Origin: Halopiger aswanensis
GTDB lineage: Archaea; Halobacteriota; Halobacteria; Halobacteriales; Natrialbaceae
Length of the DNA: 64,000 nucleotides
Assembly: GCF_003610195.1 (NCBI RefSeq)
Contig: NZ_RAPO01000002.1
Coordinates: 186,001-250,000 of the forward strand
Direction of reading: 5' to 3'
The notes below the pieces were generated by a model. The model made no database searches, was not told the origin of the DNA, and saw only the letters and a program-made list of their open reading frames with translations. Numbering within the stretch: position 1 is the stretch's first letter; each line of letters starts with the position of its first letter. Positions 8,082-34,395 of this stretch are shown here, piece after piece. The translations under genes and the position numbers were made by a program.

Positions 8082-8106
8082 TGAGTTCCGGAGGCGATTC
8101 GAGCAG

Positions 8107-8640: not shown

Positions 8641-8662
8641 GTACGTGAGACTCCACGGTCGA

Positions 8663-8675: not shown

Positions 8676-8727
8676 TCGTAATCGATTCTACCTTACATTT
8701 GACGGCCACCAGACAGCCGAAAGACAG

Positions 8728-8754
8728 GTATTGGACGACGGTAAAGTCCGATAC
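8728..8754. promoter_or_regulatory. upstream dyad in the ppa/padR interval
   Basis: GTATTGGAC (8728-8736) and GTCCGATAC (8746-8754) are inverted repeats with one mismatch and a nine-base spacer. A related dyad follows at 8764-8794. Both lie between the divergent ppa and PadR genes. Binding by the PadR protein is inference. Confidence 0.45.
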
Positions 8755-8763
8755 GACACCGTC

Positions 8764-8794
8764 GTGGTATCGACGGTTTGCTGGTCGATACCAC
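8764..8794. promoter_or_regulatory. perfect 11-bp dyad upstream of padR-like gene
   Basis: GTGGTATCGAC (8764-8774) and GTCGATACCAC (8784-8794) form a perfect inverted repeat with a nine-base spacer. It ends 17 bases before the TATA box of the PadR gene. Position and symmetry suggest an operator for autoregulation, as is common in the PadR family. Confidence 0.6.
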
Positions 8795-8810
8795 CGAATG
8801 GTCGGAAAGT

Positions 8811-8818
8811 CTTAAATA
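8811..8818 (+). promoter_or_regulatory. TATA box of the PadR gene
   Basis: CTTAAATA preceded by a GGAAAG BRE-like run, 23-30 bases before the ATG at 8841. This makes a leaderless transcript likely. Confidence 0.6.
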
Positions 8819-8840
8819 GTCTGGTGACATTTGCACAGGT

Positions 8841-9206
8841 ATGTCAGAGGCACAATCAATCACCGGCGAACAGGGCATCGCACGCGAACTTACCGCATTC
8901 CAGACGAATATCCTCGTCATCCTCGCCAAGGAGCCGATGTACGGCCTGGCGATCAAGCGAGAACTCGAGGAGTACTACGGGACCGAGGTCAACCACGGTC
9001 GTCTCTACCCGAACCTCGACGAGCTCGTCGAGCTCGGCTTGGTCGAGAAGAGCGAACTCGACAAGCGAACGAACCAGTACTCGCTGACCGACGACGGCTA
9101 CGAGGCCGTCCTCGACGGCGTCCGCTGGACGCTCTCGAAGGTCGTCACGGGCGAGGATCGCGCGGACGAGATCCGCGAGATCGTCGACGAGAGTCTCGAG
9201 AACTAA
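8841..9206 (+). CDS. PadR family transcriptional regulator
   Basis: A 121-residue winged-helix protein. The PadR core is clear: L-T-A-F-Q-T-N-I-L-V-I-L, then Y-G-L-A-I-K-R-E-L-E-E-Y-Y, the recognition segment V-N-H-G-R-L-Y-P-N-L-D-E-L, and the wing L-D-K-R-T-N-Q-Y-S-L-T. A C-terminal helix of about 30 residues probably serves dimerisation. PadR proteins usually repress by binding dyads near their own promoter, and two related dyads are upstream. No obvious effector or target gene is next to it except the divergent ppa. Confidence 0.9.
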   Translation: MSEAQSITGEQGIARELTAFQTNILVILAKEPMYGLAIKRELEEYYGTEVNHGRLYPNLDELVELGLVEKSELDKRTNQYSLTDDGYEAVLDGVRWTLSKVVTGEDRADEIREIVDESLEN

Positions 9207-19216: not shown

Positions 19217-20926
19217 TCAGGCGTCCATCGAGAACACGGCGAGCGTGTCGCCGCGAGTTCCTTGCCGGAGCCAGCCGCTGCCGCCGACCTGCACGGCGAC
19301 GTACTGTTTCTCCTCGCCGGGGTCGTACCAGCTCATGGGGGAGGCGCTGATCGGGACGTCGAACTCGTACTCCCAGAGGCGGTCGCCGGTCTCGCCGTCG
19401 TAGGCGACGAGAACGCCGTTCTGGGTGCCGTTGAACACCAGTCCCGTCGCGGTCGACATCGAGCCGCCCCACATGTAGAACTCGTCTTCGCTCTCGATCC
19501 AGTCGCGCCAGACGCGCTCGCCGGTCGACGGGTCGACCGCCGCGAAGGCGGTAATGTTGCCGTTCCACTCGTCGGGGAACTCGCTGGCCGGATCGTCCAG
19601 GCCGCCGCCCCAGTAGGGGTTGCCCTCGCTGTACTCCTCGTAGCGCCAGTACAGATCCTGCGGGAAGTTCTGGTGGACGACGTAGACGTACCCCGTTTCG
19701 GGGTTGTACGACGGCGGCTGCCAGTCGTTGCCGCCCGGCGCGCCGGGGACGAACGGGATCCGCTCGTCGGAACTGATGTGGGGGATCATCTCCCACATAT
19801 TGATGTGCTGGCAAATCTCCTCGCTGCGCTCGTAGAGCTGGCCCGACTCGGCGTCCATCATGTACACCCAGCCGGTCTTGTCCGAGCCGACGACCATCTC
19901 GGTCTCCTCGCCGTCGACCTCCACGTCCCGCAGCAGCACCCGCGGCGCGACCGCGTCGTAGTCCCAGACGTCGTGGGGACTGGACTGGAAGCCCCACTGG
20001 AACTCGCCGCTCTCTAAGTCGAGCGAGATCGTTCCGCAGGTGGGGAAGTTCGGTCCCGGCCGCACCGTCCCGTCGAAGTCGGGGCCGGGGTTCGCGACCG
20101 CCGTGTAGAGGACGCCGCGCTCCTCGTCGATCGTCGGCGTCATCCAGGTCGTTCCGCAGCCGTGCTCGCGGCTCGCGCCGATCCACTCGTCCTCTAACAG
20201 CGAGTCGGTCTTCCAGAGCATCTCGCCGCTCTCGGCGTCGATCGCCGCGACGAAACCGAGGACGCCGTACTCGCCGCCGGCGCTGCCCGTATAGATCGTG
20301 CCGTCGTGGATCACCGGCGCCCACGTCGCCGAGTAGCCGAGTTCGTGATCGGCGGTGCTCGTGTACCACTCTTCCTCGCCGGTGTAGCGGTTCAAGGCGA
20401 TGACGCCCGAGTCGAGGGTCGTCATGTATACCTTGTCGCCGAGCACGGCGGCGCCGCGGTTGTTGTCGTCACAGCAGAGTTCGACGCCGACCGGCGGCGC
20501 GTAGGTGTAGCTCCAGAGAACCTCCCCCTCGCGGGGGTCGATCGCCTTCATGTGGTTCGGCCCGTTGGTCTGGTACATCACCGGCGGGTCGCCCGGAACC
20601 ACGATCGGCGTCCCCTCCATGCTCGAGCCGGTCCCGACCGACATCTCGTACTCGAGCTCGAGGTCGGAGACGTTGTCGGGCGTGATGACGTCGGCGGTCG
20701 TGACCCGTTGCTGTTCGTAGTTGCCGCCGTACATCAGCCAGGCTTCGGGCGTCTCGCCCGACCCGCTCAGCATCTCCTGGTCGACGTCGACCTCGGGAAT
20801 GCGGTCGGTGTCGTGTTGTTGCGTGATCGATTCCTCCGGTCCGCCAACCAGCGTATAGCCGTCTTCGATCTCCTTCAGTTCGATCTCTCGTGCGGCCTGA
20901 ACGGCCCTGTCGTTGCGGAGTGCCAT
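19217..20926 (-). CDS. PQQ-dependent alcohol dehydrogenase (eight-blade quinoprotein)
   Basis: A 569-residue beta-propeller enzyme. Family marks are the N-terminal W-L-M-Y-G-G-N-Y, the rare adjacent-cysteine disulfide pair (E-L-C-C-D-D-N) that packs on PQQ, several propeller W motifs (G-E-V-L-W, G-E-E-E-W, G-E-M-L-W, G-E-R-V-W), and the catalytic Asp region S-P-H-D-V-W-D-Y-D. In bacteria such enzymes oxidise alcohols in the periplasm. No signal peptide is visible before residue 60, which is odd. The start codon is preceded by GAGGTGAT, a strong ribosome site that overlaps the stop of the upstream gene five bases away, so the two are translationally linked. Confidence 0.85.
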   Translation of the reverse strand: MALRNDRAVQAAREIELKEIEDGYTLVGGPEESITQQHDTDRIPEVDVDQEMLSGSGETPEAWLMYGGNYEQQRVTTADVITPDNVSDLELEYEMSVGTGSSMEGTPIVVPGDPPVMYQTNGPNHMKAIDPREGEVLWSYTYAPPVGVELCCDDNNRGAAVLGDKVYMTTLDSGVIALNRYTGEEEWYTSTADHELGYSATWAPVIHDGTIYTGSAGGEYGVLGFVAAIDAESGEMLWKTDSLLEDEWIGASREHGCGTTWMTPTIDEERGVLYTAVANPGPDFDGTVRPGPNFPTCGTISLDLESGEFQWGFQSSPHDVWDYDAVAPRVLLRDVEVDGEETEMVVGSDKTGWVYMMDAESGQLYERSEEICQHINMWEMIPHISSDERIPFVPGAPGGNDWQPPSYNPETGYVYVVHQNFPQDLYWRYEEYSEGNPYWGGGLDDPASEFPDEWNGNITAFAAVDPSTGERVWRDWIESEDEFYMWGGSMSTATGLVFNGTQNGVLVAYDGETGDRLWEYEFDVPISASPMSWYDPGEEKQYVAVQVGGSGWLRQGTRGDTLAVFSMDA

Positions 20927-20931
20927 GTGGA

Positions 20932-21858
20932 TCACCTCGTCTCCTCTCGCAGTTCGCTCGGTGCGCGCATCTCGTCCGTGATGTAGAAGACGTCGTGTAA
21001 CACGTCCTCCTGCTCGACGATCTGGATCGCGGCGCCGGCGGTGAACGCGGCCACCAGCCCCTCGTCCGTGAACGCGTCCGTCTCGTCGTCCGCGAGATCG
21101 AGAGCGGCCGTCGCCGTGACGTAGATACCGCCCAGCATCCCCTTGACGTGACGGACGGCGTCGTCGAGGATCTCGTCCGTTACCAGCGGCTCGTACTGCC
21201 AGAGGTGGCGGTCGAGCCCGTCGATCCAGAGCAGGGCGCCGCCCATCGCGCGCCGGTGCAGCGGCGGGACGTTCGAGGTGTCGTACTCGACGCCCTCGGG
21301 GATCTGATTCGAGGGGACCCACCGCGAGAGCCGTTCGTCGTTGTTCGCTACCGCCGTCAGCAGTGCGATCTTCTCGTCCTCGTCGAACCCGGCCTCGCCG
21401 AGGGCCGCGCCCAGCGACTCGGTTCGGACCAGTTCCCGCGTCGTTGCGGTGATATACTCCGGCTCGAATCGGAGCGCGTGCTCCTCGAGGCTCTCGAAGA
21501 AGCCGACCTCGAGCAAGTGGTCGTAGAGTCGCCAGCCCGGTTCCGCGATCTCGGTGTACGGGCCGTCCGTCCCGTCCGGAATGCCGACCTCGCGGACGTC
21601 CGGCAAGCGGTCGATCGCCTCGACGAGGCGTTCGCGCTCTCGCTCGATCAGGTCGGGATCGAGTTTGCCGTCGAGGGCTGCCCGGATCGCCTCGCCTCTC
21701 GAGGCGAACGCCGGCTCGGTCGTCGGTTCGATCGCGCCGGCGAGTCGACCCCACGTTAACTCCCCGTCTCCGTCGCCAGTGTCGTCGACACCGAGCGTCT
21801 CCGCGAGATCTCGTCGATCCGCGACGGTCGCGTTCGGTGCCGTGGTTATCTGTGCCAT
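20932..21858 (-). CDS. unknown helical protein in the PQQ dehydrogenase operon
   Basis: A 308-residue, soluble, mostly alpha-helical protein that I do not recognise. Visible features are R-L-A-G-A-I-E-P-T near residue 45, E-P-G-W-R-L-Y-D-H-L-L near residue 110, S-R-W-V-P-S-N-Q-I-P and M-G-G-A-L-L-W-I-D-G-L-D-R-H-L-W-Q near residue 215. The second half has Ala-rich amphipathic helices. There is no signal peptide or metal motif. It is the first gene of the operon, and its stop is five bases before the PQQ dehydrogenase start, so a role as chaperone, cofactor carrier or subunit for that enzyme is a reasonable guess. The start M-A-Q-I-T at 21858 is used. Confidence 0.65.
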   Translation of the reverse strand: MAQITTAPNATVADRRDLAETLGVDDTGDGDGELTWGRLAGAIEPTTEPAFASRGEAIRAALDGKLDPDLIERERERLVEAIDRLPDVREVGIPDGTDGPYTEIAEPGWRLYDHLLEVGFFESLEEHALRFEPEYITATTRELVRTESLGAALGEAGFDEDEKIALLTAVANNDERLSRWVPSNQIPEGVEYDTSNVPPLHRRAMGGALLWIDGLDRHLWQYEPLVTDEILDDAVRHVKGMLGGIYVTATAALDLADDETDAFTDEGLVAAFTAGAAIQIVEQEDVLHDVFYITDEMRAPSELREETR

Positions 21859-22166: not shown

Positions 22167-23525
22167 ATGCACGCGCGCTCGTTCTGGGTGCTCGACGACG
22201 CGGACGAGCGCCTCGTCACGCGGCTCGCGACCGGCCTCGGCCGTACCCCGGCTCGAGTCCTCGCGTACCTGCTGTTGCGGGCCGACCGCGAGTCCGAGCC
22301 GGCAACGACCGTTCACCTTCGGATCGGCACCGGCTGCAACCGCCCGGCGATCAGCGACGCGACCGCGCGCCTCGAGGCGCTGGACCTCCTCGAGCGGTCG
22401 TCCCTTCGGGGTGACGACGCGGCGCCGGGCCGCCCCCAGACGGCCTGGCAGCCGACCGCCGGCGTCGAGTCGACCGTCCGGCGCGTCTACGACCGCCACG
22501 GGCAGGCGCTGCTCGAGCAGGCCGAGGCGTGTCACGCGACTGGCGCGGCGGACGGGGTGAACGGGGACGGTACGGAGAGTCCGGACGGATCGGAACACTC
22601 CGACGCGGACGGCACTGACGCCGACGATCCCACCCCCGTCACGCTCGCCGTCAACTGGCGGCCGAACGCCCTCCACGCGCCGATCTACGCCGCGCTCGAG
22701 GCTGGCTGGTACGAAACCTTCGGCATCGACCTTCGGGTCGACCACTGCGACGGCTCGCGGCGGGCCCTCGAGCGCGTCCGAGCGGGTGCGGCCGACATCG
22801 CTATCGCCGGCGCGGCGACGGTCGTTCGCGCGCGTGCCGCCGCCGAATCGGTCGTCCCGATCGCGGTCTGCTACCAGCGGGCGATGACCGTCCTCTACAC
22901 CCTTCGAGACGTCTTCGGCGAACCGTTCCGGAGCGTCGCCCAACTCGAGGGGAAACGCGTCGGGATGCCGCCCAGTTCCGAGACCCGACTCTTGGGCCGG
23001 CTCTTCCTCTCGCAGACGGCGCTGGGTGAGGGCGTCCAAATCGTCGACACGAACGGCGAGGAACGGGATGCGCTCCGCCGCGGCGACGCGGACGTCGTCA
23101 CCGGCTCGTTTTCAGATCCCCGCGCGCTCGAGCAGCGGGGCGAGCGCGTCGATGTCCTCCCGCTGGCTGATCACTTCCCGCTCTACGGCCCGACGCTCGT
23201 CGTCCGCCGGGAAGCGCTCGCGGAGCAACGGCCGGCGCTCCACGGGATGCTCGCGGGAACTACTGCCGGGTGGGCCACAGCGTGTCGAGATGCGGGACCG
23301 GCGGCCGAGCGAATCGTTGCGCGCCGCGACGAGGGCCGCCCTGACGAGCACCGCGATGACGACGGCGAGTCCGCGGACCGGATCGAGGCCGAGTTCGACG
23401 AAGCCGCCGCGGAGTTCGGCGGCAGCGACGCCGTCACCGAACACGGCTGGGGGTGGCAGCGAGAAGCGATGTGGGACCGGCTCCGAACCGCGCTGACGCA
23501 GGCAGAACTCCTGGCCGACCCATGA
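22167..23525 (+). CDS. winged-helix regulator fused to a THI5/NMT1 ligand-binding domain
   Basis: A 452-residue protein with no signal peptide. Residues 1-115 form a winged helix (R-V-L-A-Y-L-L-L-R, C-N-R-P-A-I-S-D-A-T-A-R-L-E-A-L-D-L-L-E). An acidic linker spans 118-152. Residues 153-452 are a periplasmic-binding-fold domain with the THI5/ThiY motif N-W-R-P-N-A-L-H-A-P-I-Y and a C-terminal E-H-G-W-G-W-Q. The ligand domain closely parallels the binding protein of the adjacent ABC transporter. Inference: a cytosolic one-component sensor of the transported compound, possibly a thiamine pyrimidine precursor. Its stop overlaps the ATG of the ATPase gene (ATGA). Confidence 0.85.
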   Translation: MHARSFWVLDDADERLVTRLATGLGRTPARVLAYLLLRADRESEPATTVHLRIGTGCNRPAISDATARLEALDLLERSSLRGDDAAPGRPQTAWQPTAGVESTVRRVYDRHGQALLEQAEACHATGAADGVNGDGTESPDGSEHSDADGTDADDPTPVTLAVNWRPNALHAPIYAALEAGWYETFGIDLRVDHCDGSRRALERVRAGAADIAIAGAATVVRARAAAESVVPIAVCYQRAMTVLYTLRDVFGEPFRSVAQLEGKRVGMPPSSETRLLGRLFLSQTALGEGVQIVDTNGEERDALRRGDADVVTGSFSDPRALEQRGERVDVLPLADHFPLYGPTLVVRREALAEQRPALHGMLAGTTAGWATACRDAGPAAERIVARRDEGRPDEHRDDDGESADRIEAEFDEAAAEFGGSDAVTEHGWGWQREAMWDRLRTALTQAELLADP

Positions 23526-24289
23526 TCGACCTCGAGAACGTCACCGTCACCTTCGACGAGTTCACCGCCGTCGCGGACGTCGATCTGACGATCGACGAGG
23601 GCGAGTTCGTCACCGTCGTCGGCCCCTCGGGTTGCGGCAAGACGACGCTGCTGCGGACGATCGGCGGCCTGCAGGAGCCGACGACGGGCCGCGTCCGGAT
23701 CGACGGCCGCTCGCCCGCCGCCGCGCAGGCCGGGGCCGACCTCGGGTTCGTCTTCCAGCGCCACACCCTCTTTCCGTGGAAGACGGCCCTCGAGAACGTC
23801 ACCTTCCTGCGAAAACTGGCCGACCAGCCGCCGAACGAAGCCGACGCGCGGGCCTTGCTCCGCTCGATGGGCCTCGAGGGGTTCGAGGACGCGCGGCCGG
23901 CCGAACTCTCCGGCGGGATGCGACAGCGGGTCGCGATCGCGCGGGCGCTGCACCTCGGCGCCGACGTCCTCCTGATGGACGAGCCGTTCGGCGAACTCGA
24001 CGAGATCACGCGCGACGAACTCGGCGTCGAGATTCGGGACCTCTGGCGCCGCGAGCGCAAGACCGTCGTGTTCGTCACCCACAGCGTCCCCGAGGCGGTG
24101 TTTCTGGCCGACCGCTGTCTCGTCATGTGCGACCGTCCCGGCCGACTCGAGGCGGCGTTCGAGATCGACCTCCCGGAACCTCGCGACGCGTCGGTCTTCG
24201 GCACGCAGGCGTTCCAGGAGCAGGTCGCAAAGGTCCGGGAGACGCTCCACGAGAGCTACGACACGGAGGCGAGAGCAAGCGATGACTGA
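23522..24289 (+). CDS. ABC transporter ATPase, SsuB/TauB/ThiZ type
   Basis: A 255-residue nucleotide-binding subunit. Walker A is G-P-S-G-C-G-K-T-T, the Q-loop sits in F-V-F-Q-R-H-T-L-F-P-W-K-T, the signature is L-S-G-G-M-R-Q-R, and Walker B is V-L-L-M-D-E-P-F-G-E-L-D. The F-P-W motif after the Q-loop is typical of the nitrate/sulfonate/taurine/THI5 transporter group. It overlaps the regulator by four bases and the permease by eight, so regulator, ATPase and permease form one tightly coupled operon. Confidence 0.92.
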   Translation: MIDLENVTVTFDEFTAVADVDLTIDEGEFVTVVGPSGCGKTTLLRTIGGLQEPTTGRVRIDGRSPAAAQAGADLGFVFQRHTLFPWKTALENVTFLRKLADQPPNEADARALLRSMGLEGFEDARPAELSGGMRQRVAIARALHLGADVLLMDEPFGELDEITRDELGVEIRDLWRRERKTVVFVTHSVPEAVFLADRCLVMCDRPGRLEAAFEIDLPEPRDASVFGTQAFQEQVAKVRETLHESYDTEARASDD

Positions 24290-25130
24290 GACTGGAAGCG
24301 AGCCCGCGACCGACCGAACGGACCGGCCGGCGTCTCTCGAGCCGGGAGCCGGTACCGGCCAGCGTCACGCGGCGCTCGATGTCCTCGCGCCGACGGCCGC
24401 GCTCGCGGTCGGCATGCTGTGCTGGTGGGCCGTCACCGCCGCCGGGACCGTCCCCTCGTTCATCCTCCCGTCGCCGACCGCAGTTGCAGCCCAGTTGCTC
24501 GGCAACCCCGAACTGTACGCGCAGAACGCGCTCTCGACGCTCGAGAAGGTCGTCTACGGCGGCAGCGTCGGGATCGCGACCGGCTTCCTGCTGGCGGTAC
24601 TGGTCGCGTACCTGCCGTGGGTTCGGACCGCCGTTTACCCCTACCTCGTGGCCGTGCGCGTGCTGCCGAAGATCGCCGTCGCGCCGCTGCTGTTGATCTA
24701 CCTCGGAACGGGGACGCAGACGGCGATCGTCTTCGTCGCGCTCATCGCGTTTTTCCCGTTGGTCCTGAACACGGCGGCGGGCCTCGACCGGGCGCCGACC
24801 GAACACCGCGAACTGCTGCGCTCGGTCGATGCCGGCGCGCTCGAGCGGATCGTCTACGTCGACCTGCCGTACGCGCTGCCGGACGTCTTCGCGGGGCTCA
24901 AGCAGTCGGTGACGCTCGCGGTCGTCGGCGCCGTGGTCGGCGAGTGGGTGATCGCGGACGACGGATTGGGCTTTCTCGTGTTGATGGGGTCGGAGAACGT
25001 CCGGCCCGAGGTCATGCTCGCCGCGCTGTCGGTGCTGCTCGCGCTCGGGCTGGCGCTGTACGGATCGGTCGTGCTCGTCCAGCGCGGTATCCGGCGACGG
25101 CTCGGACTCGAGGCGATGGACCGGCGGTGA
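24282..25130 (+). CDS. ABC transporter permease, SsuC/ThiX type (first)
   Basis: A 282-residue inner-membrane subunit with about six transmembrane segments after a 35-residue polar N-terminus. The L-P-S-P-T-A-V-A-A-Q-L segment and the EAA-like coupling loop (E-H-R-E-L-L-R-S-V-D-A-G, later Y-V-D-L-P-Y-A-L-P-D-V-F-A-G-L) are typical of the family. It begins inside the ATPase gene (ATGACTGA). A second, clearly different permease lies convergent 23 bases beyond its stop, so the pore is probably a heterodimer. Confidence 0.9.
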   Translation: MTETGSEPATDRTDRPASLEPGAGTGQRHAALDVLAPTAALAVGMLCWWAVTAAGTVPSFILPSPTAVAAQLLGNPELYAQNALSTLEKVVYGGSVGIATGFLLAVLVAYLPWVRTAVYPYLVAVRVLPKIAVAPLLLIYLGTGTQTAIVFVALIAFFPLVLNTAAGLDRAPTEHRELLRSVDAGALERIVYVDLPYALPDVFAGLKQSVTLAVVGAVVGEWVIADDGLGFLVLMGSENVRPEVMLAALSVLLALGLALYGSVVLVQRGIRRRLGLEAMDRR

Positions 25131-25153: not shown

Positions 25154-25981
25154 TTACGCCTCCGCCCAGCACAACCGCTCGATCGCCACCGGCACCAGAT
25201 AGAACCCGATCCCGAGTCCCGAGAGGACGACCAGCGCGGCGTAGGTCTCGGCCGTCTCGAGGTAGGTCGCCGTCTCGAAGACGCGGGCGCCGAGGCCGGC
25301 CCGCAGGGTGACGAACTCGGCGACGACGGTTCCGACCACGGAGAGCGCGCTCGCGATCTTGAACCCGGCGACGACGCTCGGGGCCGCTGCGGGGACGCGG
25401 ACGAACAGGAACGTCTCGAGTCGCGACGCGCCCACCGACTCGGCGAGGTCGAGGTAGGCGTCGGGGGTCTCCCGCAGCCCGTCCAGCGCGGCGATCGTCA
25501 CCGGAAACGTCGTCAGCGTGGCGACCAGCGCCGCTCGAGCCGGGATCCCCCGCCCCAGCCAGAGGAACAGCAGCGGCGCGACCGCGATCACCGGCGCGAT
25601 CCGCAGGGCGACGACGTAGGGCAGCAGGGTGCGGGTCGCCGTCCGCGAGTGCGTCATCGCGAAGGCGAGGACGAGGCCGACGAGTCCGCCGGTGGCCAGA
25701 CCGAGCGCGGCGGTCGTCCCCGTCACGATCGCGTCGCCGAGCAGCGTCGGATACGTCTCGAGCAGCGCCAGCGCGACGTCGCGCGGCGACGGCAGGATGA
25801 GCGTCGGAAGCTCGGCGGCGACGACGGCGGCGTGCCACGCGGCGAGTAGAACTGCGAGGACGATCGCCGGCGGCAGGACCCGCCGGCCGACGATGACGAG
25901 TCCGTCGCGAACGACGCCCGATCGCGTCGCTGTCGCCGTCCGAACCTGCTGTCGATGGTGATCGGCCCGTCCGTCGCTCAT
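25154..25981 (-). CDS. ABC transporter permease, SsuC/ThiX type (second)
   Basis: A 275-residue membrane subunit of the same family as the plus-strand permease. It shows L-I-L-P-S-P-R-D-V-A-L-A-L-L, R-I-A-P-V-I-A-V-A-P-L-L-F-L-W, and the coupling loop Y-L-D-L-A-E-S-V-G-A-S with F-V-R-V-P-A-A-A-P-S-V-V-A-G-F. The start at 25981 (M-S-D-G-R-A-D) is 22 bases after the binding-protein stop. It is co-transcribed with the binding protein and should pair with the convergent permease and ATPase. Confidence 0.9.
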   Translation of the reverse strand: MSDGRADHHRQQVRTATATRSGVVRDGLVIVGRRVLPPAIVLAVLLAAWHAAVVAAELPTLILPSPRDVALALLETYPTLLGDAIVTGTTAALGLATGGLVGLVLAFAMTHSRTATRTLLPYVVALRIAPVIAVAPLLFLWLGRGIPARAALVATLTTFPVTIAALDGLRETPDAYLDLAESVGASRLETFLFVRVPAAAPSVVAGFKIASALSVVGTVVAEFVTLRAGLGARVFETATYLETAETYAALVVLSGLGIGFYLVPVAIERLCWAEA

Positions 25982-26003
25982 CGGTTCTGTCGATCTCCCC
26001 TCG

Positions 26004-27161
26004 CTACGAGTCGGTCGATTCGGCGTAGTCCCCGATGGACTCCGCCTCCGCGTCGAGATAGTCGTTCGTCCACACCGTCTCCGGATCGACCTCGCCCTCG
26101 AGCACGTCGCCGTCCGCGAGCGTCTCGTAGGTCGCCTGCCACGGCTCGGACTCGCTCCAGCCCCACCCGTGCTCGGCGACGGCGTCCGAGCGCATGTACT
26201 CGGCGTGCATTCGGTCCCACTTGTCGCGTTGGTTCTCCCTGACTTCCTCGAGTTCCGGCTGGGCCGCGACGAGGTGGTCGATCGCCGCCTCGGGATTCTG
26301 CGTCGCCCAGACGGCACCTCGCGCGGTCGCCCGGAGGAACGCGCGGACGGTGGCTCCGTTGTTCGCTGCGAACCCCTCGTCGGTGGCGATCAGGTGCCCG
26401 TAGGAGGGGATCGCCTCGTGGATCGACAGCACGTCGACCTCGGCGTCCTGGTGCTCGGCGTCGACGACGTCGCCGAACACGCCGCCCGCGGCGTCGATCT
26501 CGCCCGACAGCAGCTGCTGGACCGTGTCGAAGCCCGAATCGACGTACTCGACGGCTTCGAGAACGCCGTGGTGCTCGAGGTAGGCCTGCGTCATCTGCCG
26601 GACCATTCCCGGGCCGCTGCCAACCGTCGCCCCCTCGAGCTGCGCGGGGTCGGTGAGCTCGCCGAACCCGTCGCGGGTGGCGAAGACGACGTTGGGGTTG
26701 CGCTGCATGACGACGCCGACGCACTGGGGCGAGAGGCCGCGGCTGTTGACGTTGAGGAGCTGATCGGGGCTCGAGACGGCGAACTCGACGTTGCCGAGGC
26801 CGGCCTGGTTGGCGGCGAAGTCGGAGCCGTCGCCGCTCTCGATGTCGACGCTCTCGAACCCTTCCTCGTCGTAGAACCCCTCCTCGTGGGCCGCGACGTA
26901 GGGTGCGTGGAGGCCGTTTATCTGCCAGTTGAGCAACAGCGTGACGTCGGTTACCTCGGGCTCGGTGCCGTCGGCGTCGGCGGGTTCGTCTTCGGCCTCG
27001 TCGCTCTCGGTCCCAGCCCCGTCGGCCGACGCGCTGGCGTTTCCGTTTCCGCCCCCGCCTCCGTTCCCCTCACCGTCCGCATCACCCCCGAGACAACCGG
27101 CTACTGCCGCCGCTCCCGTCACCGCGAGGAACCGACGGCGCGTGTGGCGAAATCGTGGCAT
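26004..27161 (-). CDS. THI5/NMT1-type substrate-binding lipoprotein
   Basis: A 385-residue surface lipoprotein. The Tat motif R-R-R-F-L at residues 8-12 and lipobox V-A-G-C (Cys23) are followed by a Gly/Asn/Asp/Glu-rich spacer to about residue 70. The binding domain opens with L-L-L-N-W-Q-I-N-G-L-H-A-P-Y, the N-W-x-x-N-x-x-H motif of ThiY-like proteins, and ends with A-E-H-G-W-G-W-S. The ligand may be a formylated or amino pyrimidine, but riboflavin-like or other heterocycles are not excluded. A TATA-like CTTTATC (minus strand, 27195-27201) lies 34-40 bases upstream. Confidence 0.88.
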   Translation of the reverse strand: MPRFRHTRRRFLAVTGAAAVAGCLGGDADGEGNGGGGGNGNASASADGAGTESDEAEDEPADADGTEPEVTDVTLLLNWQINGLHAPYVAAHEEGFYDEEGFESVDIESGDGSDFAANQAGLGNVEFAVSSPDQLLNVNSRGLSPQCVGVVMQRNPNVVFATRDGFGELTDPAQLEGATVGSGPGMVRQMTQAYLEHHGVLEAVEYVDSGFDTVQQLLSGEIDAAGGVFGDVVDAEHQDAEVDVLSIHEAIPSYGHLIATDEGFAANNGATVRAFLRATARGAVWATQNPEAAIDHLVAAQPELEEVRENQRDKWDRMHAEYMRSDAVAEHGWGWSESEPWQATYETLADGDVLEGEVDPETVWTNDYLDAEAESIGDYAESTDS

Positions 27162-27395: not shown

Positions 27396-28373
27396 GTGAA
27401 GCAACCGGTAGTGGTGCCCGTGATCGACCGATTCGACGCGCTCGAGCGGCTCCGACAGCCCGAATACACGGGCGAGAACCGCTGTCTGCCCTGTACGGTC
27501 GCGAACGTCGCGATCGCGTTCGCGATCGCCGTGGGGATCGCCGTCGCCTCGCCGCTCGCCGGCGTGCTCGCGTTCGGGTGCTGTCTCGCGATCATCGCCA
27601 TACGAGGGTATTTGATTCCTGGTACGCCCACGCTCACGCAGCGGTACCTGCCCGAGCGCGTCCTTCGGGCGTTCGGGAAGGCGTCCGACGAACGGCCGAC
27701 GGTCGAGACAGCCGACCTCGAGGACGCACTCGAGGCGCTCGTGGCGGCGGACGTCGTCGCGCGCGGCGCGTCCAGCCGGTCGTCGACGGAGGCGATCCGG
27801 CTCACTCCTCAGTTTCGACGGCGGTGGGACGACCGCCTCGAGCGGTTTGGACCCGGAGAATCAGCCAAATCCGCCGGGCAACGCGGGACCGATCCGACCG
27901 CCGAACGGACGCCCGACGCGACGGCCGTCGCGGAGTTTGTCAACCTCGAGCCCGACGCTGTCCGCCAGCGCGGCGAGACCACCTTCGAACTCGAGGGATC
28001 GCGGCGCCGCCGATGGGAGTCCGCTGCGGCGCTGGCGGCCGATATCGCCGCCGACCGCGAACTCCGCAATCGGCTCGAGGGGTGGGCCGATCTCGAAGTG
28101 GACGACCGTCAGGATGTCCTCACCGGGCTCCGACTGCTCCGCGAGCGGTGTCCCGCGCCGCCCTGTGACGGCCGGCTGACCGCGACTCGGGACCGCCTCG
28201 AACACTGCTGTCGGCGGACCCAGATCGGCCTCGAGGTCACCTGTGAGGACTGCGGCCGACCGATCGTCACGGTCGCCGCCCCCGAGGACGACCCGCTGCT
28301 CGAGTGGGTGGCGACGTCGGAGCGGGAGCACCGCGACGCCGCGGACGCTGCTGACGCCGCAGACGCCGACTGA
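27396..28373 (+). CDS. haloarchaeal membrane protein with C-terminal Cys pairs
   Basis: A protein of about 325 residues that I do not recognise. C-L-P-C lies near residue 30, just before two hydrophobic segments (about 35-72). A cytosolic part follows, with R-S-S-T-E-A-I-R-L-T-P-Q-F and several Arg-rich helices. Near the end it has C-P-A-P-P-C, then C-C-R-R-T, and V-T-C-E-D-C-G-R-P-I-V, which looks like a zinc knuckle. The tail is a D-A-A-D-A-A-D-A-A-D repeat. The GTG at 27396 is the longest form. A TATA-like CGATTTTT at 27377-27384 better fits a leaderless GTG at 27411 (V-V-P-V-I-D). It sits between two THI5-type clusters. Confidence 0.65.
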   Translation: MKQPVVVPVIDRFDALERLRQPEYTGENRCLPCTVANVAIAFAIAVGIAVASPLAGVLAFGCCLAIIAIRGYLIPGTPTLTQRYLPERVLRAFGKASDERPTVETADLEDALEALVAADVVARGASSRSSTEAIRLTPQFRRRWDDRLERFGPGESAKSAGQRGTDPTAERTPDATAVAEFVNLEPDAVRQRGETTFELEGSRRRRWESAAALAADIAADRELRNRLEGWADLEVDDRQDVLTGLRLLRERCPAPPCDGRLTATRDRLEHCCRRTQIGLEVTCEDCGRPIVTVAAPEDDPLLEWVATSEREHRDAADAADAADAD

Positions 28374-28385
28374 GGGTCGCGACCG

Positions 28386-28724
28386 TTACTCGCGCCACTC
28401 CGGCTCCGTCCGCGGCGGAGAGAGCACCCCGAGACCGACAGCGGGCTCGTCGCTCCGGTTTTCGGCGCCGTGGCGCTCGTTGCTCGGGAATCGGTAGGCG
28501 TCTCCTTCCTCGAGGACGATCTCGCCGTCATCGACGATCGCCGTCAGCGTCCCCCGGAGCACGTAGCCGATCTGCTCGTGCTCGTGTCGGTGACTGGGTA
28601 GCGTCGCCCCGGGTTCGACCCGCCAGTACTTCATGCTCGCGCGGTCGCCCGTCGAGAGATCGCCGAGGTAGACGCCGTCCGCAACCTCCTCGAGGGTAGC
28701 GTCTACGGTCCGTCTGTGTTCCAT
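28386..28724 (-). CDS. single-domain cupin
   Basis: A 112-residue cupin barrel. Motif 1 is H-R-H-E-H-E-Q-I-G-Y-V-L-R-G, with two His and a Glu for metal binding. Motif 2 is E-G-D-A-Y-R-F-P-S-N-E-R-H, with the fourth His. Such proteins act as small isomerases, dioxygenases or metabolite sensors. It is divergent from the operon of cytosolic binding-fold proteins and shares its upstream region, so a common regulator is likely. The start at 28724 places M-E-H-R-R first; GTG-type extensions to 28748 are open. Confidence 0.82.
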   Translation of the reverse strand: MEHRRTVDATLEEVADGVYLGDLSTGDRASMKYWRVEPGATLPSHRHEHEQIGYVLRGTLTAIVDDGEIVLEEGDAYRFPSNERHGAENRSDEPAVGLGVLSPPRTEPEWRE

Positions 28725-28774
28725 GAAACCACTCACCACGACACGCATTGACGAGAGTTCGCTACGTGAAGCTT

Positions 28775-28789: not shown

Positions 28790-28818
28790 GACTGTATTTT
28801 CTCCACGAAGACTCGTAT

Positions 28819-28839
28819 AAACGTTTCCTAGAAACGTTT
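28819..28839. promoter_or_regulatory. perfect AAACGTTT repeat operator
   Basis: AAACGTTT occurs at 28819-28826 and again at 28832-28839, five bases apart. Each half is itself palindromic, so the site is both a direct and an inverted repeat. The right half runs into the TATA box of the operon that starts at 28870. A protein bound here would block promoter recognition. Confidence 0.6.
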
Positions 28840-28843
28840 TATT
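28837..28843 (+). promoter_or_regulatory. TATA box of the binding-fold operon
   Basis: TTTTATT, 27-33 bases before the ATG at 28870. The preceding GAAACG serves as a BRE-like element and is part of the repeat operator. Confidence 0.6.
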
Positions 28844-28869: not shown

Positions 28870-29772
28870 ATGTTACACAGTGACACGGTGCGGGTGTTTC
28901 ACCTCCCGTTCTCGTTCATGCTGCCACAGCGGGTCGCGGCCGAACGCGGCTACTTCGCCGATGAGGGGTTGGACGTCGAGTTGCTGGAGCGCGACCGACG
29001 GCAGGTCGACCGGAAGTACATCCCCGCAGAATGGACGCTAACCGGCGACGACGACGTCGATATCTATCCGGTCTGCAAGTGGGAAAGCCTCCGACGCACG
29101 TGGTCGCTCGAGGACGGTCGAATCGTCGCCCACGGTGCGTTCGCCGACCTACCGTACACGCTCCACGTCCGACCGCAATCGGACTTCGAGTCGCCCGCGG
29201 ACCTCGCGAACGTTCCCGTCGCCGTCAACCAGCGGACGGGCCAGGAGTACACCGCGATGCGCGCGCTCGAGGAGCACCTGCCTCCGGGGGACGTCGAACT
29301 CGAGCACTACGGGATGCCGACCGATCGGCTGCGAGCACTTCGGGACGGCGAGGTCGACGCCGCGACGCTGCTCGACCCCCACAGCACGCTGGCCGACCGG
29401 CTGGGGTTCGAGCGCCTCCTCGAGTTTCCGAACCACATCGGCGTCGTCGGCGCCGAAGGACTCGAGGGCGACACTCTCGAGGCGTTCATGCGGGCCTACG
29501 AGCGCGCCGTCGAGACGATCAACGGGAACCCCGACGCGTTCCGCGACCAGTACCTCGAGATGCTCGAGAAGGATGCCACGGTCGCGCCCGACCTTTTCGA
29601 AGACGTCGACCTCGAGGACCTCCGCGAGTCCGTGACGGTGCCGACGTATGAGACGCCGGAAATCGCGGCCGTAGACGACCTCGCGGGTCAACTCGAGTGG
29701 ATGCAGAACCGCGAACTAATCGACGATAGCGCGGAGATCGAGACGATCGTCGCGCCCCCGCCGCTCGACTAA
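28870..29772 (+). CDS. cytosolic periplasmic-binding-fold protein (NMT1 superfamily), first
   Basis: A 300-residue protein with the two-lobed NMT1/SsuA fold. Visible elements are L-P-Q-R-V-A-A-E-R-G-Y-F-A-D-E-G-L-D-V-E-L-L at the start, D-V-D-I-Y-P-V-C-K-W-E-S-L, F-E-S-P-A-D-L-A-N-V-P-V-A-V near residue 115, and L-R-D-G-E-V-D-A-A-T-L-L-D-P near residue 160. There is no signal peptide, no lipobox and no Tat motif, and no permease or ATPase in its operon. It may therefore be an enzyme or cytosolic binding protein, as for yeast Thi5, MqnA/MqnD or dihydroxyphthalate decarboxylase, which use the same fold. The substrate is unknown. Confidence 0.8.
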   Translation: MLHSDTVRVFHLPFSFMLPQRVAAERGYFADEGLDVELLERDRRQVDRKYIPAEWTLTGDDDVDIYPVCKWESLRRTWSLEDGRIVAHGAFADLPYTLHVRPQSDFESPADLANVPVAVNQRTGQEYTAMRALEEHLPPGDVELEHYGMPTDRLRALRDGEVDAATLLDPHSTLADRLGFERLLEFPNHIGVVGAEGLEGDTLEAFMRAYERAVETINGNPDAFRDQYLEMLEKDATVAPDLFEDVDLEDLRESVTVPTYETPEIAAVDDLAGQLEWMQNRELIDDSAEIETIVAPPPLD

Positions 29773-29776
29773 ACCC

Positions 29777-30772
29777 ATGGACATCGACACCCAACAGGCC
29801 GCGCTCGACGAGCACCACGACGACCCCGGCGACCTGCCGGTGATGCGAGCGCGGTTCGAACACAACGGCAGTCCGCGCTACCTGCTGTACACGATCAAGC
29901 GGTTCGGCTTCGACCGCGACCACGACTTCCACCTCGACGTCGAACTCGTCTCGGACGAACTCGAGAACGGCCTCGAGACCGTCGAGGCGAAGCTCCACGA
30001 GGGGGACGCGGACCTGATCGACATCGACTACATCTCGACGGCCCGCGAGCGGGTCGGCGGCGCGCCGATCGTGGCCTTCCACCCCTACGGGCGAACAGTG
30101 GGCGGACTCGTGGTCCCCGAGGACTCCGAGATCGAGGGTCTGACGGACCTCCGCAACTGCCGCGTCGGCGTCGTCCGCCGCCTCGACAAGAACTGGATCC
30201 TCACCCGCGCCGCCTGCCGGGAATACCACGACTTCGATCCCGAGGACGAGGCGACGTCGGTCGAGTCGGGTTCGAAGGTCGAACTCACCCGGATGCTGCG
30301 CGAGGGCGAGGTCGACGCCGCGCTCCAGTTCTGGCAGATCGTCCCCGAGATCGTCGAGACCGGGCCCTACCGCGAGGCGCTGCCGATGTCCGAACTCGTC
30401 CAGCGCCTCTCGGGGGCCGACGAGACGCTGCCGATCTCGACGTTCCTCACGAGCGAGGACTACCTCGCCGAGCGGCCCGACGCCGTCGAGGGGTTCAAAC
30501 GAGCCTACGCGGACGCCGTCGAACGACTGCGGACCGACGATGACTGCTGGGACGAACTCGGCGAACGAATGATGTACGAGGACGACCCCGCCGTCGTCCG
30601 CGGCATCCGCGACGGCTGGCGCGAGATGGTCGTCACCGACTGGGACGAGGAGACGATTGCGGCGATGGAGCAACTGTTCGGCCACCTGCTCGAGGTCGCC
30701 GGCCCCGAGGCGCTCGGCGTCGACCACATTCCCGAGGACGTGTTCCGAACGGAGGTGGCGCCCTCGCAATGA
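29777..30772 (+). CDS. cytosolic periplasmic-binding-fold protein, second
   Basis: A 331-residue protein with no export signal. The frame opens with a polar, His/Asp-rich leader, then F-D-R-D-H-D-F-H-L-D-V-E-L-V, L-H-E-G-D-A-D-L-I-D-I-D-Y, and the lobe-crossing L-T-D-L-R-N-C-R-V-G-V-V-R-R-L. Later L-R-E-G-E-V-D-A-A-L-Q-F-W-Q repeats the G-E-V-D-A motif of its operon partners. It resembles a substrate-binding protein but is probably an intracellular enzyme or binder. It starts four bases after the first gene and overlaps the third by four (ATGA). Confidence 0.78.
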   Translation: MDIDTQQAALDEHHDDPGDLPVMRARFEHNGSPRYLLYTIKRFGFDRDHDFHLDVELVSDELENGLETVEAKLHEGDADLIDIDYISTARERVGGAPIVAFHPYGRTVGGLVVPEDSEIEGLTDLRNCRVGVVRRLDKNWILTRAACREYHDFDPEDEATSVESGSKVELTRMLREGEVDAALQFWQIVPEIVETGPYREALPMSELVQRLSGADETLPISTFLTSEDYLAERPDAVEGFKRAYADAVERLRTDDDCWDELGERMMYEDDPAVVRGIRDGWREMVVTDWDEETIAAMEQLFGHLLEVAGPEALGVDHIPEDVFRTEVAPSQ

Positions 30773-31776
30773 CGTCGAACGCGACGGAACCGGCGGACGC
30801 GACCGAGACGCGAACGACCGTCGACTTCCAACTCAACTGGGAGCCCAACGGTTTCCAGGCGCCGTACTTCCTCGCGCGCGAACGGGGCTTCTACGCGGAC
30901 GAGGGCCTCGAGGTGCGGTTCGTCGAGGGCCACGGCTCGCCGTTCGCCGCCGAACAGGCCGCCAAGGGTCGGGCGGAGTTCGCGCTCGCCGGTGCGAGCG
31001 CCGTCCTCTCCGTACAGAGCCGGGGCCTCGAGCCGCTGGCGGTCGCCGCGGTCACCGGAACGACCCCGGCCGCGGTCTACACGCTGCGGGATACCTTCGG
31101 CGAGCCCCTCGAGGAGCCAGCCCAACTCGCCGGGTGCACGATCGCGCCGTCGGCGACGAAGACGCGCATCCTGGCGGCACAACTGCTCGAGGACGCCGGG
31201 ATCCGCGACGAGATCGAACTGCTCGACGTTGACGACCACACGCACCACCGCGTCCAGCACAAGGTGCTCGAGGGCGAGGTGGACGCGGCGGTCGGCGTCG
31301 TGACCAACGGCTACGAACTCGAGCGCGAGCACGACCGGACTGCCGACGAACTCCCGATCGGCGACGCTCTCGGCGTCTACGGCATGACGATCGTCACCGA
31401 GCCCGCGTTCGCCGAGGCGAACCCCGAGACGGTTCGGTCGTTCCTCCGCGGGACGGCGCGAGGGTGGGAGGCGGCAACCAGCGACCCCGAGGCGGCGATC
31501 GACGTGCTCGTCTCGCGTAATGCGACGCTCGAGCGCACCAGAGACGTCGAGCGCCGGAAGTTCGAGACGGCCGCAACCGAGTTGCAGTTCACCGAGGTCG
31601 TCCGCCGCCGCGGGTGGGGGACCCACGACGGGCAGCGGTGGCGCCGACTCGGGCGAACGCTTTCGGAGACCGACCTGCTCGAGGGGGCGATCGATCCGGA
31701 CGCGGCGTGGACGAACGAGTTCGCCGAAACGGACGAGCCGGTCCTCGCGAACTACGCGGACCGGGTGGACGACTAG
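30769..31776 (+). CDS. cytosolic THI5/NMT1-like protein, third
   Basis: A 335-residue protein with a polar Thr/Ala/Asp leader instead of a signal peptide. The binding domain begins Q-L-N-W-E-P-N-G-F-Q-A-P-Y-F, nearly the same THI5 motif as in the regulator and the transporter lipoprotein, although the His of N-x-x-H is replaced by Gln. It continues with F-A-L-A-G-A-S-A-V-L-S-V and T-I-A-P-S-A-T-K-T-R-I-L, and ends with a G-W-G-T-H-D-G-Q-R-W region like the H-G-W-G-W of the other two. It is translationally coupled to the second gene, and one base separates it from the VOC gene. Confidence 0.82.
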   Translation: MTSNATEPADATETRTTVDFQLNWEPNGFQAPYFLARERGFYADEGLEVRFVEGHGSPFAAEQAAKGRAEFALAGASAVLSVQSRGLEPLAVAAVTGTTPAAVYTLRDTFGEPLEEPAQLAGCTIAPSATKTRILAAQLLEDAGIRDEIELLDVDDHTHHRVQHKVLEGEVDAAVGVVTNGYELEREHDRTADELPIGDALGVYGMTIVTEPAFAEANPETVRSFLRGTARGWEAATSDPEAAIDVLVSRNATLERTRDVERRKFETAATELQFTEVVRRRGWGTHDGQRWRRLGRTLSETDLLEGAIDPDAAWTNEFAETDEPVLANYADRVDD

Positions 31777-31777
31777 T

Positions 31778-32206
31778 ATGCGGGCCGTCGATCACATCAA
31801 CGTCGACGTCGACGACCTCGAGGCCTGCTACGCCTTCTACCGCGACGTGCTGGGGCTCGAGGTTCGCCGGCCGCCGTCCGATTTCGTCGGTGAGCACGCG
31901 ATGTTTCAGGTCGGCGACACCGTCGTCACGCTGGCCGAGACCGGCCGTGCCGAGGGGTGGGACGAACGCGGCCTCGAGCACCCGTTGGACAAGGCCCACC
32001 TCGCGTTCGAGACCGATCGAGCGCAGTACGAGGCGCTGCTGGACGAGCTGGACGGCCAGTTCCCCAAGCAGGGACCCTACGACTGGGACGAGTTCGAGGG
32101 GTTCTACTTCCTGGATCCGGACGGCAACCTGCTCGAGGTCGTCACGTACGATTCGCCGGCAGACGAGCGCGAGCGGCCGCTGCTGACCCACGACGACGTC
32201 GAATAA
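31778..32206 (+). CDS. VOC (glyoxalase/dioxygenase) family protein
   Basis: A 142-residue vicinal-oxygen-chelate protein. The two beta-alpha-beta-beta-beta modules are visible: V-D-H-I-N-V-D-V-D-D-L-E-A-C-Y-A-F-Y-R-D-V-L-G, then K-A-H-L-A-F-E-T-D, and the end L-D-P-D-G-N-L-L-E-V-V. His6, the His of A-H-L and the Glu of L-E-V are likely metal ligands. Members isomerise, cleave rings with oxygen, or bind drugs. As the last gene of the cytosolic binding-fold operon it may do a ring- or carbonyl-chemistry step. ATG 31778 follows the previous stop by one base. Confidence 0.85.
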   Translation: MRAVDHINVDVDDLEACYAFYRDVLGLEVRRPPSDFVGEHAMFQVGDTVVTLAETGRAEGWDERGLEHPLDKAHLAFETDRAQYEALLDELDGQFPKQGPYDWDEFEGFYFLDPDGNLLEVVTYDSPADERERPLLTHDDVE

Positions 32207-32259: not shown

Positions 32260-34395
32260 TCAGTCGTCGGCGACCCCCTCGGCGTCCGCCGCCGGCTCGA
32301 GGCCGACCTCGATCTCCGCGGCCGCGGCCTTGTACTCGGGAATCTTCGATCGCTCGTCGAGCACGTCGTTCGTGAGCCGGTTCGCCGAGGCGGCCGCGAA
32401 GTGCGGCGTCGTCCAGACCACGCCCTCCTTGGTGTCCTCGGTGACCTGCGCTTCGACGGTGATCTCGCCGCGGCGCGACTTGAGGCGGACTTTCTCGCCG
32501 TCTTCGATCCCGTACCGTTCGGCGTCCGCCGGGTGGACGTCGACGAAGTTCTCCGGCGTCTGCCGGTTGAGCGTCGGCGACCGGCGGCTCATCGTCCCGG
32601 TGTTGTAGTGCTCCTCGAGCCGCGCCGTGGTCAAGATCAGCGGGTACTCGTCGTCGGGGGTCTCCCGGGGCGGCTGGTGGCTGACGCCCTCGATGTGGCC
32701 CTTGCCGCTCTCGGTGTCGAACTCGTGCTCGTAGAGGAACGGGTCGCCCTCGTCGCCGGGCTGGTAGCAGGGCCAGTGCAGCCCCTCCTCGCCGAGCAGG
32801 TCGTAGGTCATCCCGTGGTAGATCGGACAGACCTGCCGGAGTTCCTCGAAGACGTCCTCGGGGTCGTCGAAGTCGAACCCCTCGTCGAACAGGCGGGTGC
32901 CGACCTCCGAGAGGATCTCGAGGTCGTGCTTCGTGTTCTCGTGGACCTTTCCGACGCCGCGCATGCGCTGGACGCGGCGGTCGGTGTTGGTGACGGTCCC
33001 GCTGCGCTCAGCCCAGGTCGTCGCCGGGAGGACGACGTCGGCGTACTTCGCGGTTTCGGTCATGAAGATGTCCTGGACCACCATGAACTCGAGATCCTGG
33101 ATCCGCTCGGCGACCTGATTCGCGTCCGGCTCGGACATGATGGGGTTCTCGCCCATCACGTACAGTCCCTTGACCGCCTCGCCGAACTGGTGGGAGATCT
33201 CGACGTTCGTCAGCCCCGGCTCGTCGGGAACCTCGAAGCCCCAGACGTCCTCGACGCGCGTGCGCGCCTCGTCGTCGTCGACCAGTTGGTAGCCCGGGAG
33301 GACGTTCGGCATCGCGCCGACGTCGCAGGTCCCCTGGACGTTGTTCTGGCCGCGCAGCGGGTTGACGCCCGTGCCGGGCCGGCCGAGGTTGCCGGTGATC
33401 AGCGCCAGGTTGATCTCGTTTTGCACGTTGTCGACGCCGCAGGCGTGCTGGCTCATCCCCATGCCGGTGAAGATGGCCGCGTTGTCGGCCTCGGCGTACT
33501 TCTTCGCGGCCAGTTCGATGTCCTCGAGCGGGAGGCCACACTCCTCGGCGGCGGCTTCCTTGTCGAAGTCCTCGAGAGTCTCCTGCAGGTGGTCGAACCC
33601 CTCCGTGCGGGCCTCGACGAACTCCTCGTCGATCCAGCCGTCCTCCGGATGCTCCTCGTGGTGCTCCAGGATCGTCTTGAGGACGATATTGAGTAGGGGG
33701 ATGTCGGTCCCCGGATTCAGTTGCAGGTGCTGGTGGCGGTCGGTGTCGTCGATCTGGAACGAGCGGGTCGTCTTGTTGGCGTGAGGGTCGACCTGGATGA
33801 CGGTCGCGCCGTCCAGCACGGCCTGGCGGAAGTACTGGCTGTTCGCGATGGGGTGTTGTTCGCCCGGATTCGCCCCTTGGATCCAGAACAGGTCGCACTC
33901 CTCACGGAGGTCGCGCATGCTGTTGGTCATCGCGCCCGCGCCGAGGCTGGTCCGCAGCGCCCAGACCGTCGAGGCGTGGCACATTCGGGTGCAGTTGTCG
34001 ACGTTGTTCGTCCCGTACCGGCGGGCGAGTTTCTGGAGGAGGTAGTTCTCCTCGTTCATCGTCTTCGAGGAGCCGAAAAAGCCCGTCGCGTCCGACCCGT
34101 ACGACTCGCGGATGCGCTCGAGTTCGTCGACGATGTACTCGAAACACTCCTCCCAGGTGGCTTCGCGGAACTCGCCGTCTTCCTTGATGAGCGGGTCGGT
34201 CAACCGATCCTCGTGGTCGACGACCTCGGTCGCCGCGCCGCCCTTGATACAGACCCGACCCTCGTTGACCGGGGCCTCGCCCCAGGGCATGAACTGTACG
34301 TCGCCCGGTTCCTCACCCTGCCGTACCTGGATTCCACAGCCGACGCCGCAGTACGGACAGATCGTCTTGACAGTGTCTTGGTTGTCGCTGGACAT
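32260..34395 (-). CDS. fdhA: formate dehydrogenase alpha subunit (molybdopterin, Cys type)
   Basis: A 711-residue molybdenum enzyme subunit that oxidises formate to CO2. The N-terminal cluster motif C-P-Y-C-G-V-G-C plus C-I-K-G-G gives four iron-sulfur ligands. The active-site Cys and His occur in T-R-M-C-H-A-S, in the place of selenocysteine in E. coli FdhF. Molybdopterin loops include W-I-Q-G-A-N-P-G-E-Q-H-P, G-M-G-M-S-Q-H and R-G-Q-N-N-V-Q-G. There is no Tat signal, so it is cytosolic. No beta or gamma subunit, and no fdhD, is adjacent. The start at 34395 is preferred; 34458 and 34473 are open. Confidence 0.92.
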   Translation of the reverse strand: MSSDNQDTVKTICPYCGVGCGIQVRQGEEPGDVQFMPWGEAPVNEGRVCIKGGAATEVVDHEDRLTDPLIKEDGEFREATWEECFEYIVDELERIRESYGSDATGFFGSSKTMNEENYLLQKLARRYGTNNVDNCTRMCHASTVWALRTSLGAGAMTNSMRDLREECDLFWIQGANPGEQHPIANSQYFRQAVLDGATVIQVDPHANKTTRSFQIDDTDRHQHLQLNPGTDIPLLNIVLKTILEHHEEHPEDGWIDEEFVEARTEGFDHLQETLEDFDKEAAAEECGLPLEDIELAAKKYAEADNAAIFTGMGMSQHACGVDNVQNEINLALITGNLGRPGTGVNPLRGQNNVQGTCDVGAMPNVLPGYQLVDDDEARTRVEDVWGFEVPDEPGLTNVEISHQFGEAVKGLYVMGENPIMSEPDANQVAERIQDLEFMVVQDIFMTETAKYADVVLPATTWAERSGTVTNTDRRVQRMRGVGKVHENTKHDLEILSEVGTRLFDEGFDFDDPEDVFEELRQVCPIYHGMTYDLLGEEGLHWPCYQPGDEGDPFLYEHEFDTESGKGHIEGVSHQPPRETPDDEYPLILTTARLEEHYNTGTMSRRSPTLNRQTPENFVDVHPADAERYGIEDGEKVRLKSRRGEITVEAQVTEDTKEGVVWTTPHFAAASANRLTNDVLDERSKIPEYKAAAAEIEVGLEPAADAEGVADD

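Follow-up and report, generated by a model that had tools for sequence, protein, structure and literature searches.

Organization and conservation of the operon

The stretch of DNA analyzed here (the window) comprises 64,000 nucleotides of the haloarchaeal genome of Halopiger aswanensis, which has a size of about 4.9 Mb. It contains an operon coding for three proteins with the fold of substrate-binding proteins, here denominated N1, N2 and N3, and for a protein of the VOC family. In the following, these proteins are discussed as possible components of a system for the cofactor pyrroloquinoline quinone (PQQ). The operon and its divergent partner comprise:

28386–28748, − strand: cupin protein, 120 residues, transcribed divergently from the operon and conserved with it
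28818–28841, + strand: inverted repeat TAAANNTTN(6-8)AANNTTTA, about 40 bases 5' of N1, in conserved position
28870–29772, + strand: N1, 300 residues, NMT1 fold, signal-less, with an invariant C69-K70-W71-E72 block
29777–30772, + strand: N2, 331 residues, relative of PqqT without signal, with invariant K138 (equivalent to K142 of PqqT) and W186
30769–31776, + strand: N3, 335 residues, signal-less paralogue of the receptor of an ATP-binding cassette (ABC) importer (26004–27161), with an invariant inserted T-H-H-R-V stretch
31778–32206, + strand: VOC protein, 142 residues, own ATG, with H6, H74 and E120 invariant and possibly binding a metal

The original prediction had described three consecutive genes for 300, 331 and 335 residues with a VOC gene at the end, coupled by a four-base overlap or gaps of 1–4 bases. 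The open reading frames are exactly so arranged, and the spacings N1–N2, N2–N3 and N3–VOC amount to 4, −4 and 1 bases. Also the assignment to the NMT1/SsuA fold holds. N1, N2 and N3 match the NMT1 family with 37.5, 31.4 and 112.7 bits, all above the Pfam cut-off of 20.5, and the AlphaFold models of N1 and N2 present the binding-protein fold (mean predicted local distance difference test score about 89; 88.9 for N2).

A genome scan with N2 revealed 33 other orthologous loci in about 20 haloarchaeal genera. In nearly all of these 33 loci N1, N2 and N3 are retained together with the divergent cupin gene, and the VOC gene either adjoins them or is located just past the cupin gene. The orthologues are 58–88% identical to the window proteins with about one third of the alignment columns invariant. 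Because of this conservation over about 20 genera the operon block is not a chance arrangement. The inverted repeat between the cupin and N1 genes occurs about 40 bases ahead of the N1 start in many relatives. No second site is present in the window, including the regions before other genes of the cluster, where it was sought. It is probably a promoter or operator element. In Haloplanus N2 occurs in tandem duplicates (L016:6833-7804 and 7986-8975; L028:6807-7796 and 7986-8975), and the extra copy is 64–66% identical to N2 of the window.

Relationship of N2 with the PQQ-binding protein PqqT

A profile built from 34 N2 sequences was run against the PDB chains. It matched 9b1u (E 7e-31) and 9ooz (E 1e-30), while all remaining chains had E-values of 0.006 or worse. 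The AlphaFold model of N2 superimposes on 9ooz, 9b1u and 9b1v with Z scores of 35.5–36.0 at 1.8–1.9 Å over 295–296 residues with 26–28% identity; the runner-up family is SsuA with Z 24.9. According to their titles these PDB entries contain PqqT with bound PQQ or with PQQ and Gd3+ (the latter in 9B1V). In Methylobacterium (Methylorubrum) extorquens PqqT resides in the periplasm and binds PQQ with a dissociation constant of 50 nM (PMC12124388). Its residue K142 was exchanged in order to obtain a better metal site (PMC12828617, PMC12124388), and the K142D variant binds La3+ together with PQQ (PMC12828617).

Two PqqT sites were mapped onto N2, namely K142 and the Y161W site. The residue numberings of 9ooz and 9b1u are offset by 27, and therefore K142 is the lysine of the LDKNW motif, which corresponds to K138 of N2 and is invariant across the 34 N2 sequences. 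W186 of N2, the tryptophan beside the site of PqqT Y161, is invariant too. Bacterial relatives of N2 are found in a related gene context: on pSymB of Sinorhizobium meliloti near a PQQ dehydrogenase of the methanol/ethanol family (XoxF), and in Qingshengfaniella adjoining PQQ dehydrogenase genes (PQQ glucose dehydrogenase), in both cases with ABC permease and ATPase genes. In sequence and predicted structure N2 is related to PqqT, without having its signal. It most likely functions like PqqT but is not filed as such, since the export signal that defines PqqT was looked for and is missing.

Predicted location of N1, N2 and N3

The lack of export signals in the three proteins, already noted in the original prediction, is confirmed by 34–41 orthologues of each: no lipobox was found in any orthologue of N1, N2 or N3, nor an N-terminal hydrophobic segment of the kind present in most exported controls. 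In the orthologues of N2 (41) and N3 a hydrophobic N-terminal segment is wholly absent; in those of N1 the best N-terminal segment has a median of 1.3 compared with 1.7–2.7 in exported controls. It could be supposed that N1–N3, which after all match the NMT1 family, are ordinary ABC receptors with mis-annotated starts and thus overlooked signal peptides. This explanation was rejected and appears hardly credible: the open frame of N1 has 301 residues from stop to stop and leaves no upstream room, N2 and N3 have starts that are linked to the gene before them and retained in 30–40 orthologues, and neither hydrophobic segment nor lipobox exists.

Consistently exported homologues had been named as evidence against an enzymatic role. 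Export is true of the bacterial relatives of N2, whose N-termini are signal-peptide-like in contrast with haloarchaeal N2, and false for the haloarchaeal orthologues and for the bacterial relatives of N1.

Quinoprotein dehydrogenase and its co-occurrence with N2

The gene neighbourhood survey suggested in the original prediction revealed a conserved gene set with the cupin, a quinoprotein 8 kb away, an ABC importer and a receptor-type regulator; the last three had not been connected with the operon in the original prediction. The quinoprotein and its neighbour are encoded at:

19217–20926, − strand: PQQ-type alcohol dehydrogenase (quinoprotein), 569 residues, signal-less, with Cys-Cys ring and an E/N/D/D metal site of the lanthanide type
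20932–21858, − strand: quinoprotein companion, 308 residues, conserved, signal-less and unmatched in Pfam and NCBIfam

The quinoprotein matches the Pfam PQQ domain with E 1e-52 and the NCBIfam methanol/ethanol family with E 2e-110; its TIGR03075 score of 369.8 bits stays below the cut-off of 480.05. The window enzyme and 16 relatives were aligned with Sinorhizobium XoxF, and all 17 possess the Cys-Cys ring, Glu, Asn, Asp, a second Asp and Trp, with Lys in place of the active-site Arg. Among quinoprotein dehydrogenases the second Asp is the mark of lanthanide enzymes. In 10 of the 16 relatives only 0–2 open codons are found 5' of the quinoprotein match, so that a signal peptide is impossible there; by sequence this dehydrogenase is cytosolic. 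The 308-residue companion precedes it in most loci and is kept beside it in about nine genera. It is possibly a redox partner or an assembly factor.

The association of N2 with the quinoprotein was counted at face value irrespective of kinship, at a main quinoprotein threshold of E 1e-60 and at a stricter one. Among 121 Natrialbaceae genomes the quinoprotein is present in 40/41 with N2 compared to 10/80 without it, and within the genus g9 in 16/16 compared to 0/9. For 292 genomes of Halobacteria the numbers are 39/41 and 10/251 (Fisher 1e-36), or 33/41 and 8/251 at the strict threshold. Both genes are at most 20 kb apart in 21 of the 34 cases checked. The importer receptor (26004–27161) follows the quinoprotein as well (33/35 strict matches). 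From the 49 genomes with quinoprotein 23 contain N2 and receptor, 16 N2 alone, 10 the receptor alone and none lacks both; accordingly all ten N2-less genomes have the exported receptor.

Importer, regulator and source of the cofactor

The original prediction had stated that permease and ATPase genes are missing from the operon. This is correct for the N1–N2–N3–VOC operon itself, where none was found, but genes for an ABC importer (ATPase, two permeases and its exported receptor) are located 1.7–5.4 kb upstream and form part of the same conserved gene set:

22167–23525, + strand: probable regulator with an NMT1 receptor domain joined to a winged-helix-like N-terminus
23453–24289, + strand: ABC importer ATPase, as listed open reading frame; the start is likely further downstream
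24282–25130, + strand: ABC importer permease 1, family match
25154–26000, − strand: ABC importer permease 2, C-terminal end at 25154
26004–27161, − strand: exported importer receptor of the lipoprotein type (TRRRFLAVTGAAAVAGC), nearest to N3 among the window proteins

The product of 22167–23525 is probably a ligand-sensing regulator; its sensor is paralogous to the importer receptor and its gene adjoins the importer. Neither PqqC nor PqqE was found above cut-off in the window genome and seven other cluster-bearing genomes, with the positive control, Sinorhizobium pSymB, giving clear matches; the search for PqqE in these eight genomes yielded only radical S-adenosylmethionine (SAM) matches below cut-off. 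The cofactor would therefore be scavenged or made via another route.

The latter leads to the main alternative to a role in binding and delivery, namely a biosynthetic role. N1–N3, VOC protein and cupin would be enzymes of a so far undescribed cytosolic pathway that produces or completes a PQQ-like cofactor in place of PqqA-E, with the importer as scavenging alternative. Apart from the presence of a quinoprotein in genomes where PqqC and PqqE were not found, it could explain why N2 or the receptor is present in every one of the 49 genomes with quinoprotein (23/16/10/0; P 0.011 if independent), although this complementarity is weak and ignores phylogeny. The fold includes enzymes (Thi5, MqnA, MqnD and DszB are among the structure matches), and the invariant Cys of N1, the inserted invariant His pair of N3 and the retained H/H/E of the VOC protein would suit catalysis. 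Against this stand the nearest relative of N2, by far a pure binding protein, and a cluster devoid of a peptide precursor or radical SAM partner. We regard this alternative as unlikely. Its fullest form, an archaeal PQQ-like cofactor made or finished independently of PqqA-E by three binding-fold enzymes with VOC protein and cupin and used by a cytosolic lanthanide-type dehydrogenase, is somewhat less likely still.

Properties of N1 and N3

For the N1 model the closest fold is SsuA (Z 23.8). Bacterial relatives of N1 (Geminicoccaceae, Mesorhizobium plasmids) are without obvious signal and have the C-x-W block in common with it. Those on alphaproteobacterial plasmids (L070:9959-10870; L071:9956-10870) are 28–34% identical and reside in unrelated gene contexts. 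N3 is 40% identical to the exported importer receptor and has a further relative in the receptor domain of the probable regulator. It differs from the exported paralogue by an insertion of four residues with the invariant THHRV. Sequence and fold (N2 resembling PqqT, N3 the neighbouring ABC receptor) point to binding and delivery, with N1 as the least understood protein.

The profile of N3 matches ThiY (E 5e-17) and Thi5 (E 3e-15). Together with the common fold this could suggest a pathway of thiamine or menaquinone, similar to Thi5 or to MqnA/MqnD. Membership in these families was rejected, as N1–N3 have no match to VitK2_biosynth (PF02621) and the CCCFC motif of Thi5 is absent from the alignments of N1, N2 and N3. 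Moreover, the operon goes with the quinoprotein and is not present in all genomes. Such a pathway is very improbable.

Neighbouring oxidation genes

In about nine genera a gene for a tungsten-type aldehyde oxidoreductase lies between the VOC and cupin genes or near them. At the level of whole genomes a link between it and the operon was rejected: homologues occur in 105 of 121 Natrialbaceae genomes, and with such a wide distribution mere presence is uninformative and only the position inside the cluster counts. In Halococcus dombrowskii (L086:10271-12610) the cluster has a molybdopterin subunit of the xanthine dehydrogenase family in place of the aldehyde ferredoxin oxidoreductase. A further recurrent neighbour adjoins the cluster in the window and in some relatives:

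32260–34395, − strand: formate dehydrogenase alpha subunit, above the curated cut-off

The gene set fits an oxidation of alcohol via aldehyde to acid, possibly of methanol to CO2, with the substrate deduced from the genes. These neighbours, the co-occurrence of the importer receptor with the quinoprotein (33/35) and its resemblance to N3 could also indicate a catabolic cluster, in which the ligand of importer, N1–N3 and regulator is the alcohol substrate, or what is formed from it by oxidation, instead of the cofactor, and N1–N3 trap or process a product. This would leave the grouping of N2 with PqqT and the retained lysine of the cofactor site unexplained, and a receptor is superfluous for small alcohols. 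We hold it for quite improbable.

Some further genes recur near the cluster. An open reading frame at 27396–28373 (+ strand) codes for a protein of 325 residues that has hydrophobic segments but matches no family, and it is found there in eight genera. On haloarchaeal plasmids (L084, L085, L086, L087) genes for CDC48-type or other AAA ATPases, a sodium:calcium antiporter, ferredoxin, DUF4242 and amphi-Trp proteins are repeatedly found.

Proposed role of the operon

The safest statement is that the operon is a cytosolic PQQ-related module. On balance it is probably part of a cytosolic PQQ system that serves the signal-less PQQ alcohol dehydrogenase of the lanthanide type. We infer PQQ binding and delivery from the likeness of N2 to PqqT and the co-occurrence with the quinoprotein; the use of lanthanides and the substrate are likewise inferred. 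Haloarchaea would obtain PQQ, or an analogue close to it, by scavenging, perhaps in the form of a metal complex, and the neighbouring ABC importer, where present, would take it in. N2 would hold it in the cytosol, in the manner of PqqT in the periplasm of bacteria. N1 and N3 may be companion binders that hold the cofactor, pass it on or load it into the apo-dehydrogenase, and cupin and VOC protein may act as accessory metalloproteins. Further oxidation of the aldehyde released by the dehydrogenase would fall to the aldehyde oxidoreductase encoded nearby, joined in some genomes by formate dehydrogenase.

PQQ is a tricyclic heteroaromatic o-quinone. From the originally predicted cytosolic pathway for an aromatic or heteroaromatic compound, the cytosolic location, the conserved gene set and, probably, the heteroaromatic nature of the ligand (PQQ) have stood, whereas a sequential conversion is so far unsupported; conversion of a compound by N1–N3 as enzymes is unproven.

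Several observations weigh against the proposed PQQ system. N1 and N3 have no special likeness to PqqT (for N1 its Z score is 19.7, below that of SsuA), and three separate cytosolic binders for a single cofactor are odd. Ten genomes contain the quinoprotein without N2, which is therefore not strictly required. Conversely, two genomes with N2 (G047 and G156) are devoid of a quinoprotein at E 1e-60, and eight have only a more distant one or none. In the 16 of 49 genomes that possess N2 without the importer receptor PQQ would need another entry route. Finally, the co-occurrence counts ignore phylogeny, although the association also holds inside a single genus, g9 (16/16 compared to 0/9).

To our knowledge, descriptions of PQQ enzymes and PQQ-binding proteins refer to the periplasm of bacteria, and the use of PQQ or lanthanides by archaea has hardly been studied. 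An open-access literature search for haloarchaeal dehydrogenases that use PQQ or lanthanides gave irrelevant co-mentions only. If the proposed role is true, the cytosol would be a new location for PQQ chemistry, known so far outside the bacterial cytoplasm. With a signal-less relative of PqqT and a signal-less quinoprotein the questions of archaeal PQQ and lanthanide use become directly testable, and the handling of a cofactor in the cytosol is a possible additional role for a fold annotated as “ABC transporter substrate-binding protein”.

Comparison with known systems

Cytosolic enzymes with the fold of N1–N3 are Thi5, MqnA/MqnD, DszB and 4,5-dihydroxyphthalate decarboxylase. Their Z scores with N2 are 15–23 and thus below the 36 of PqqT; the decarboxylase (9jp7) reaches 15.0 and is not among the best 50 matches listed for N1. 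ABC receptors of the SsuA/ThiY/TauA type (Pfam NMT1) have this fold in common with N1–N3, but the latter are without export signal and without a dedicated permease in the operon and score below the TIGR01728 cut-off. The haloarchaeal quinoprotein resembles the lanthanide-dependent dehydrogenases XoxF and ExaF in the Cys-Cys ring, the E/N/D and second Asp ligands and the active-site Trp. It differs in being archaeal, signal-less, below the TIGR03075 cut-off and accompanied by a conserved companion. The closest counterpart is PqqT of Methylorubrum extorquens AM1 (9b1u, 9b1v, 9ooz). In contrast with it N2 is signal-less, belongs to archaea in which PqqC and PqqE were not found and is encoded in an operon with two more signal-less paralogues, VOC protein and cupin. 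What N2 and PqqT share is the full-length sequence and fold, the LDKNW lysine, the FW/YW aromatic pair after it and the neighbourhood of a PQQ dehydrogenase gene.

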